A DNA stretch of 64,000 nucleotides from positions 1 through 64,000 of the forward strand of contig CACCCN010000003.1 of NCBI GenBank assembly GCA_902544525.1, in the 5' to 3' direction. The notes under the pieces were generated by a model. The model was not told where the DNA came from, did no database searches, and was given only the letters and a program-made list of their open reading frames with translations. Both the position numbers and the translations under genes were made by a program. The first letter of the stretch is position 1. Every line of letters starts with the position of its first letter. Positions 33,642 through 35,791 of this stretch are shown in pieces. The stretch is from an uncultured Pelagibacteraceae bacterium. Its GTDB lineage: Bacteria; Pseudomonadota; Alphaproteobacteria; Pelagibacterales; AG-422-B15.

Positions 33642-33896
33642 ATGAAAAAAATAAATAAGCTTGAGACACTATCTCAAGCAGAAATTGATAGAATTATTGA
33701 GATGGGATGGGAAGATCGAACAACTTTTGAAGATATTAGAGTTCAATTTGATCTATTAGAAAAAGAAGTTATTGCTTTAATGAAAGCAAATCTGAAACGA
33801 ACATCTTTTTTAAATTGGCGCAAGCGAGTTCGTGGCAGAAAAACTAAGATAGAGAACTTGTCTGATAGATTTAAGTCAAAAAAACAAAAAAACTAA
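33642..33896 (+). CDS. DUF2805 (TIGR03643) family protein
   Basis: 84 residues. The family is recognised by LSQAEIDRIIEMGWEDRTTFEDIRVQFDLLEKEVIALMK, a helix-turn-helix-like segment, followed by a basic tail (NLKRTSFLNWRKRVRGRKTK). The tail and fold suggest nucleic-acid binding; the role is not established. It starts 5 bases after hisG and is the last gene of that operon. Confidence 0.88.
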   Translation: MKKINKLETLSQAEIDRIIEMGWEDRTTFEDIRVQFDLLEKEVIALMKANLKRTSFLNWRKRVRGRKTKIENLSDRFKSKKQKN

Positions 33897-33998: not shown

Positions 33999-34325
33999 AT
34001 GAGCAAGTTTTATGCACTAGGTTCATATACAGACCAGGCTTTAGGAGGGTTTTTAAAGAATCCAAATGAAGATAGAAGTGAAGTTATAAAAACGTTATTT
34101 GGTTCAGTTGGAGGCACTGTTATTCTATTTGATATATTAAGAGGGTCTTCTGATTTTATCATGTGTGTTGAAGGTGTCGATTTTGAAACTTTAGCAAGTG
34201 TTAAAGTAGCGGTGCAGTCTACTGGAATGATAAAAGATTTTATGGTTTTTGAAACAACAGATATGAATAAAATTGCAACTGGTGCGAGTAATGCTTTATC
34301 AAGTTACAGAAAGCCAGGAGAATAA
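33999..34325 (+). CDS. GYD domain protein (dimeric ferredoxin-like fold)
   Basis: 108 residues from the ATG with a near-perfect Shine-Dalgarno (AGGAGG, 5 bases away); an upstream in-frame ATG lacks such a site. FYALGSYTDQALGGFLKNPNEDRSEVIKTLFGSVGGTVILFDILRG, followed by DFIMCVEGVDFETLASVKVAVQSTG, is the GYD family pattern (the usual GDYD is replaced by RGSSDF). The function of GYD proteins is unknown. It is the first of five tandem genes for single-domain proteins of about 95-126 residues. Confidence 0.82.
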   Translation: MSKFYALGSYTDQALGGFLKNPNEDRSEVIKTLFGSVGGTVILFDILRGSSDFIMCVEGVDFETLASVKVAVQSTGMIKDFMVFETTDMNKIATGASNALSSYRKPGE

Positions 34326-34327
34326 CT

Positions 34328-34633
34328 ATGGCAATAACTTGTATAGCTAGATTTCAAGCAAAAGAAGAGTGCTACGATGAACTATATAAATGGATGACAG
34401 ATCACCTAATTGATATGAAAGAGCATGCAGGTAACTTGAATTGTTATGCCAGTGGAAATAGTGAGTCAGGTTTAATAACTATATATGAAAAATGGAATTC
34501 TCAAGAAGATCATGAAGCATATCTAGCGTGGAGAACAGAAGTAGGTCATCTTGAACATGTTGTTTCGCTTCTTGCTACTGATGGACCGGAAATAACTTAT
34601 GAAGACGTTCTACATGAACACTCAAATGAATAA
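34328..34633 (+). CDS. Antibiotic biosynthesis monooxygenase (ABM)-like protein
   Basis: 101 residues. The ABM/quinol-monooxygenase fold is indicated by AITCIARFQAKEECYDELYKWMTDHLIDMKEHAGNLNCYASGN and a late IYEKWNSQEDHEAYLAWR strand-helix with the conserved E-x-W. Relatives (YgiN, ActVA-Orf6, heme-degrading IsdG) act as cofactor-free oxygenases on quinones or as binding proteins. An AGGAGA site precedes the start, 2 bases after the GYD stop, so the two are co-translated. Confidence 0.85.
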   Translation: MAITCIARFQAKEECYDELYKWMTDHLIDMKEHAGNLNCYASGNSESGLITIYEKWNSQEDHEAYLAWRTEVGHLEHVVSLLATDGPEITYEDVLHEHSNE

Positions 34634-34662
34634 TTATAATTTACTATAATGGAGAGAAAATA

Positions 34663-35043
34663 ATGGAAGCAAAAGATGTGGTACAAAAAGCTTATGACTT
34701 GTTTGGATCAGGTGATATGGAAAGTTTTATGAATGAAATTGTTCATGATGACATGACATGGACTTTTCCTGGCGATACAACTAAACACCCATTAGCAGGT
34801 GTTCATCAAGGTAAAGAAAGTTGTATGGCTAATTTTGCAAAAATACCCGAAAATTGGAATAATTTTACTGTTAAGCCTATTTCAATGATTAGTGAGGGCA
34901 ATAAAGTCTTTGCTATAGTAAAAGGTTCGGCTGATGGAATGGACACATTGTTTGGGCATTATTTTGAAATAGAAGATAATAAAACAAAAACTATGATGAC
35001 TTTTGATGATACCCTATCAATGGTCAATTCAATAAGTAAATAA
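34663..35043 (+). CDS. SnoaL-like/NTF2-fold protein
   Basis: 126 residues. It begins with VVQKAYDLFGSGDMESFMNEIVHDDMTWTFPGD, a textbook SnoaL-like start with an acidic pocket, then HPLAGVHQGKESCMANFAKIPENW and the KVFAIVKGSADGM strand. The missing long C-terminal extension and size fit ketosteroid-isomerase-like proteins. It has its own GGAGAG Shine-Dalgarno and lies 29 bases after the ABM gene. It could catalyse isomerisation or hydration of a small ligand; no ligand is known. Confidence 0.85.
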   Translation: MEAKDVVQKAYDLFGSGDMESFMNEIVHDDMTWTFPGDTTKHPLAGVHQGKESCMANFAKIPENWNNFTVKPISMISEGNKVFAIVKGSADGMDTLFGHYFEIEDNKTKTMMTFDDTLSMVNSISK

Positions 35044-35061
35044 TAACAAAAGGATAAATAA

Positions 35062-35412
35062 ATGAGTTCAATCGAAGTTAAAAGTTTTAGTAATGCTGAT
35101 GAAGTTAATGAGAACTTTGATAATGCAAAAATTGAGTCTGTAAATGTTGGAGGTCAAAGAGTTAACCGATTGCACTTACAGCCTGGGTGGAAATGGTCTG
35201 TTGATGTAAAGCCTTCAGTAGGTACCCATAGTTGTCAAGCAACTCATCTTGGAATAGTTAATTCAGGAACCATTTGTTGCAAGCATGATGATGGAACTGA
35301 AATGACGTATACTAAAGGTGATGCATATTCTATTAAACCTGGTCACGATGCATGGGTTGTTGGTGAAGAAGCGGTTGAGGCAATTGAATTTGCAGGAATA
35401 TGGGGAGAGTAA
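35062..35412 (+). CDS. Small cupin-domain protein
   Basis: 116 residues. The single cupin barrel shows GVQ-like core HLQPGWKWSVDVKPSVGTHSCQATHLGIVNSGTICCKHDDGTEMTYTKGDAYSIKPGHDAWVVGEE. The usual metal-binding G(X)5HXH motif is not intact (THSCQATH), although the GDAYSIKPGHDAW second motif keeps its His, so metal binding is uncertain. An AAGGAT site precedes the start. It belongs to the five-gene small-protein cluster. Confidence 0.82.
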   Translation: MSSIEVKSFSNADEVNENFDNAKIESVNVGGQRVNRLHLQPGWKWSVDVKPSVGTHSCQATHLGIVNSGTICCKHDDGTEMTYTKGDAYSIKPGHDAWVVGEEAVEAIEFAGIWGE

Positions 35413-35459
35413 ATATCTCACCTGTTTAATAATTTTAATAAATAGAAAGGACACTGATT

Positions 35460-35744
35460 ATGAATAATTATATTGTAACTCACAAATTTAGATCATTAGA
35501 AATGAAAGAGGCTTTTGCTAAAGCTGGTGAAGGTATGTCTGATGAAGATCAAATTAAAGGTATGACCGGCGATAACGCAGCATGTCAAATGAGCTGGACA
35601 ACCCCAGGTGATTCATTGGCAATGTTTTGTTTCTGGAAAGCGAATAGTCCTGATGATGTTAATCAAATGTTAGCGGATTATGACGAGTTTTTTGAACCGC
35701 ACCAGTTTGAATTAACAGACGAGCCATTCAACTTTGTTAGATAA
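35460..35744 (+). CDS. Small ferredoxin-like hypothetical protein, 94 aa
   Basis: 94 residues, no named family recognised. The alternation of strand (NNYIVTHKFRS), helix (EMKEAFAKAGEGMSDE), strand (AACQMSWTTPGDSLAMFCFWKA) and helix (PDDVNQMLADYDEFF) suggests a ferredoxin-like alpha/beta sandwich, the same fold class as the GYD and ABM proteins just upstream. An AAAGGA site is close to the start. It is the last of the cluster and is followed by a strong terminator. Confidence 0.75.
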   Translation: MNNYIVTHKFRSLEMKEAFAKAGEGMSDEDQIKGMTGDNAACQMSWTTPGDSLAMFCFWKANSPDDVNQMLADYDEFFEPHQFELTDEPFNFVR

Positions 35745-35762
35745 ATATATTATACTAGATAT

Positions 35763-35791
35763 AAAAAAACCCGGCTAAGCCGGGTTTTTTT
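35763..35791. terminator. Strong bidirectional rho-independent terminator
   Basis: CCCGGC / GCCGGG with a three-base loop, flanked by seven A on the left and seven T on the right, so it works for both strands. It separates the plus-strand small-protein cluster from the minus-strand groESL operon, and it is the clearest terminator in the window. Confidence 0.95.

Follow-up and report, generated by a model that had tools for sequence, protein, structure and literature searches.

Integron cassette arrays are strings of small single-domain proteins with a high turnover, and the hypervariable regions of SAR11 genomes vary in gene content between close relatives. The locus described here resembles both. 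Most members of its array belong to, or fold like, the Pfam families GYD, ABM, SnoaL_2, DUF1330, DUF3764 and DUF3303, and their folds also occur in cofactor-free enzymes and binders, such as the DABB (dimeric ferredoxin-like), NTF2 and cupin proteins YgiN, ClcF, TftG, OAC and DddK. Few cells in the sea are as abundant as those of SAR11, and their genomes are very small; despite this economy, as many as 14 consecutive genes are given over to tiny proteins of this kind. We give an even chance to the reading that the locus is one instance of a modular accessory operon, shared by SAR11 and some other alphaproteobacteria, which would serve as a toolbox, perhaps for clearing reactive electrophilic metabolites.

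Five small genes between hisG and groEL

The source genome (1.26 Mb) belongs to SAR11 (Pelagibacterales), and the window, by which we mean the whole stretch of 64,000 nucleotides that was analysed, carries five ORFs in one orientation (+ strand) at positions 33999-35744, encoding proteins of 108, 101, 126, 116 and 94 aa. A preliminary description of this DNA had reported five tandem tiny genes of 94-126 codons there, and the ORFs and their common direction were confirmed. Directly upstream lies a DUF2805/TIGR03643 gene (33642-33896, + strand; Pfam 2.2e-25, NCBIfam above cut-off), which is a gene of the host site and stands outside the array, as it is also present at the array-less hisG-groEL site of a sister genome (G002). 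Among the genomes examined, this gene occurs at the hisG-groEL junction in the window's genus only.

The gaps within the array measure 2, 29, 18 and 47 bp, and this spacing, together with the conservation of the genes, suggests that the five are read as a single transcript. For the first gene, the automatic ORF list gave an upstream TTG as the start (124 aa); the ATG at 33999 has an AGGAGG and agrees with the start of its relatives. Each gene had been credited with a good Shine-Dalgarno sequence. A purine-rich one does precede all five, being good for the GYD, ABM and SnoaL genes but moderate for the cupin and the 94-aa gene.

Families and folds of the five proteins

The first three proteins are recognized by Pfam. 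The GYD-domain protein (33999-34325; PF08734, 1.7e-10) scores 41.2 bits against a gathering cut-off of 31.4 and has relatives in 38 of 60 genomes. The ABM-type DABB protein (34328-34633; PF03992, 5.8e-5) passes its cut-off marginally (23.6 against 23.1 bits) and is about 27% identical to the ABM protein at the equivalent array position in other genera. The NTF2-fold SnoaL_2 protein (34663-35043; PF12680, 1.6e-10) reaches 41.9 bits against 27, shares 69-75% identity with array copies from other genera of its family, and finds its best PDB match in 1tuh (EGC068), which we take to be an environmental gene-cassette protein.

The remaining two were placed by their models, built from window and SAR11 sequences, whose PDB fold matches share 7-17% sequence identity with them. 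The divergent cupin (35062-35412) stays below the gathering cut-off of Cupin_2 (PF07883; 20.5 against 27.2 bits), has full-length relatives across the order at 65-74% identity, and gives a model (pLDDT 90) that matches PDB cupins, TM1459 among them (E 2.6e-5, TM 0.65), as well as DddK; the predicted fold assigns it to the cupin superfamily. The 94-aa protein (35460-35744) has no significant Pfam match. Its model, a ferredoxin-like beta-alpha-beta-beta-alpha-beta fold (pLDDT 78, TM about 0.5), is closest to NIPSNAP (5k9f, E 2.4e-4), followed by ABM-type proteins, ClcF and OAC, and on this predicted fold the protein belongs to the DABB superfamily. The earlier assignment of three DABB proteins, one NTF2 protein and one cupin holds, with Pfam carrying the GYD, ABM and SnoaL_2 members and the models carrying the other two. 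By sequence, no solved homologues were found for GYD, the cupin, or the array families c3, c21, c27 and c43. Array members are mostly under purifying selection; the 94-aa protein is 96% identical to the copy in sister genome G003 at a corrected synonymous distance of about 1 (dN/dS about 0.02).

The first metal motif of the cupin had been called degraded. The classic pattern, HxH..E in motif 1 together with the histidine of motif 2, is indeed not present, but the residues conserved instead (C58, H62 and H95) are fixed across the cupin family and are not peculiar to the window copy. DddK and other cupins use metals. The conserved trio could favour an operon for metal or oxidative stress, in which the cupin and the DABB proteins would buffer metals, as the nickel protein SCO4226 does, or process peroxides. 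Methionine sulfoxide reductase and peroxiredoxin genes do occur near arrays, although such adjacent genes may be mere anchors, and the 94-aa protein shows a weak likeness to the SCO4226-like family (PF14026; E 0.14), although at 12.7 bits this falls far under the cut-off of 28.5. Nor was a metal transporter or a metalloregulator seen in any array. We consider this explanation improbable.

Empty, partial and dead versions of the site

In other genera of the window's family, hisG and groEL converge about 40-50 bp apart and the array is absent. Within the window's genus, the site holds the DUF2805 gene alone in G002; the end of an ABM gene followed by the 94-aa gene in G003; and, in the 98%-complete genome G004, the remnant of a DUF3764-like gene (c3) that a stop and a deletion have disrupted, in a genome with none of the five array families of the window. 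Because these sister genomes show empty, partial and dead sites, the array arrived or was assembled here within the genus, where gain and loss are ongoing. Between them, the sister genomes offer the site in full, partial, dead and empty form, which makes them a natural experiment.

The hairpin that closes the array (35763-35791, no strand assigned) is strong, as the preliminary description had it (-17.9 kcal/mol, z -5). However, close counterparts occur between hisG and groEL in array-less relatives, so it is the junction's own terminator, which the array uses and does not include. A promoter common to the window array and to those of other genera was also considered and rejected, alignment scores lying mostly inside the shuffle range. 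The MTase marker of the SDR/MTase locus was absent from all five window-genus genomes checked, most of them incomplete.

Several other origins were considered and discarded. The locus does not look like an integron cassette array, as its gaps are too short, attC-like repeats are missing and no integrase is found among the nearby ORFs. None of the five proteins matches a PADLOC model of anti-phage defence, and phage cargo was set aside in the light of PHROG, which gave no significant match, and of IMG/VR, in which no cupin relative was confirmed. Recent tandem duplication also fails to explain the array: member profiles compared with hhalign are mostly unrelated, which argues that members were recruited and not duplicated. 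The profile links found were c3-DUF1330 and, more weakly, SnoaL-c21, c27-DUF1330 and cupin-c55; those among c22, c37, c44 and c55 may be effects of signal peptides or composition.

It could still be that these sites are insertion hot spots that collect short, cheap genes with separate roles under a shared promoter. Such a process would leave variable content, remnants and empty sites, all of which are seen, and GYD and cupin genes also stand alone at other fixed loci. Yet the window site shows no integrase, and no tRNA, Rfam element, repeat or insertion scar was found there. The cargo is, furthermore, confined to DABB, NTF2 and cupin folds with a few membrane or secreted partners, and the same few protein families come together again both in distant lineages and at unrelated loci, their order being conserved in SAR11. 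We regard the absence of any shared function as unlikely.

Related arrays across SAR11

The preliminary description treated the five genes as a group and named the absence of their neighbourhood from all relatives as a refutation. The exact order of the five was found in this genome alone; the neighbourhood itself is not private to it, and related arrays are widespread, which excludes its absence from every relative. Across the order we counted 78 co-oriented runs of 2-14 genes in 64 compositions, numbers that describe diversity and not independent events, since some loci were sampled twice via two collections. The relatives are draft genomes in which members may be hidden, and genes at related loci were called mechanically. 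The runs occupy at least three unrelated loci and draw on a pool of about a dozen single-domain families laid head to tail in one direction: the DABB families GYD, ABM, DUF1330, DUF3764-like and the 94-aa family of the window, the NTF2 families SnoaL_2 and a DUF4440-like family, two cupins, and some family-less proteins.

Within the window's family, partners that are both present are almost always no more than 3 kb apart (GYD-ABM in 9 of 9 genomes, GYD-SnoaL in 19 of 19, cupin-SnoaL in 17 of 18 and SnoaL-94aa in 8 of 8, uncorrected for shared ancestry or habitat), and this proximity, along with the recurrence of arrays in distant families and at further loci, bears out the grouping. Order within runs is equally regular: GYD precedes ABM (9:0), ABM precedes SnoaL (10:0) and SnoaL precedes the cupin (25:0), SMR genes come after every array family except DUF2798, and many pairs never change order. 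What does not survive is the notion of one fixed five-protein system, against which the varying subsets argue.

In other genera of this family, the array adjoins a divergent gene for a 287-aa SDR and reads, for instance, GYD-ABM-SnoaL-94aa-c3, GYD-SnoaL-cupin-c37-c3 or GYD-ABM-SnoaL-c37-c3-cupin. A second SAR11 family of the same order carries its arrays, of up to 14 genes, between cysK and a TauD-type dioxygenase/inositol-phosphatase-like pair, and adds DUF1330, a DUF4440-like NTF2 protein, c27, c43, and secreted and membrane proteins. These arrays usually end in a DsbA/HCCA-isomerase-like gene and SMR-family proteins, so the earlier remark that no regulator or transporter is included is accurate for the window array but does not extend to its relatives, one distant array even having an HxlR regulator.

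SMR-family genes stand in tandem pairs near the array end (for example, L204 10047-10721). Because the member tested has a glycine at the position aligned to Glu14 of EmrE, a reading as drug pumps is weakened, and these proteins are probably not multidrug antiporters of the ordinary kind; possibly, each pair forms a heterodimer that transports an uncharged or anionic substrate. In this second family, GYD and the cupin are frequently found at second, separate loci. There, a closely conserved aldehyde dehydrogenase gene stands in divergent orientation beside GYD in 8 of the 13 genomes examined (L071, L140, L145, L150 and others), and the second cupin locus (L216-L252), which is conserved, has a GFA-family gene and one for an S24-peptidase (LexA/repressor-like) as neighbours.

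Relatives beyond the order

Among 289 genomes of the class, the thresholds used retrieved the cupin family in nine, the 94-aa family in five and SnoaL in four. Outside the order, the 94-aa gene lies near the cupin in both genomes that carry its family, and all three genomes with SnoaL are among the eight with the cupin, a coincidence with a chance of about 1e-5 if they were independent, uncorrected for ancestry or habitat. One such genome (G343) has the array DUF3303-GYD-ABM-like-DUF3764-cupin-94aa followed by DUF1330, divergent from an HxlR regulator. The cupin of this otherwise intact array (L264, G343:C22, 6329-6658) contains a TAG in frame, perhaps through decay or an error in assembly. 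Another (G300) carries a co-oriented SnoaL-YdhR-DUF3764-like-ABM-SnoaL run and, on a different contig, c27-cupin-NTF2, and in a third (G172) GYD adjoins SnoaL. In large Rhizobiales-like genomes, whose lineage is guessed, the cupin relative is solitary; array membership is therefore not required there.

A cupin 73% identical to that of the window was also seen in a SAR86 MAG (L173, JADHNV010000037.1), where genes for a FAD_binding_2 dehydrogenase, an SDR and two SnoaL-like proteins lie nearby; this locus may reflect transfer or misbinning. In a Rhodobiaceae MAG, a cupin relative lies near SDR and P450 genes. Both neighbourhoods are of the kind expected if the array were a pathway breaking down one particular compound (terpenoid, steroid, aromatic or polyketide-like), in which SnoaL, ABM and the cupin would supply the isomerase, oxygenase and cyclase steps, and so are the divergent SDR and the DsbA/HCCA-isomerase-like gene beside SAR11 arrays. 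Against this, the window array includes no large catabolic enzyme, the flanking enzymes differ and are unrelated between unrelated loci, and neither the 64 subsets nor a nearly complete sister genome lacking all five families fits an obligate pathway. We judge such a pathway distinctly unlikely.

A possible toolbox against reactive metabolites

Since subsets vary, genes are lost singly and families are mostly unrelated, we favour parallel, individually useful proteins, the modular operon introduced above. The pocket of each member, small and shaped like a barrel or a cone, would bind, isomerise, hydrolyse or oxidise a small molecule with no organic cofactor, and the members would make up a toolbox working side by side instead of the successive steps of an obligate pathway. 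Because they would act in parallel, the loss of a single gene would be tolerable, and members could be gained and lost one at a time.

In cells that have few regulators, the likeliest role would be to clear aldehydes, quinones, enones, oxidised lipids or allelochemicals. Detoxification or binding of a reactive small molecule is plausible and agrees with the neighbours. The neighbours (aldehyde dehydrogenase, SDR, GFA, glyoxalase-family and DsbA/HCCA-isomerase-like genes and, once, HxlR, a type of regulator that can sense electrophiles) point weakly to reactive carbonyls or quinones, though they may be unrelated anchors. If the array is one functional kit, a whole group of families now hypothetical would acquire a common role open to testing, and the kit would reveal a chemical stress that a minimal ocean cell cannot ignore.

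Comparison with known systems

The portions of the open-access papers that were searched, which include the SAR11 physiology papers PMC2864753, PMC3090418 and PMC5069961, contain no description of an ordered, exchangeable array or of its regulation. It is tempting to speculate, tentatively and with the balance against it, that these loci represent an undescribed, class-wide kind of operon: an ordered, exchangeable DABB/NTF2/cupin array, its single-domain members unrelated to one another, that would act as a modular chemical-tolerance kit of streamlined ocean bacteria and swap its members like cassettes with no recombinase. Its proteins share folds with YgiN, ClcF, TftG, OAC and DddK, but identities are 7-17% and no catalytic residues are transferred. 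In contrast to integron cassette arrays, the genes here are separated by 2-47 bp, with neither attC-like repeats nor an integrase, and they keep their order. Unlike the hypervariable regions of SAR11, whose variability between close relatives they share, these arrays draw their content from a small pool and hold it in a conserved order.
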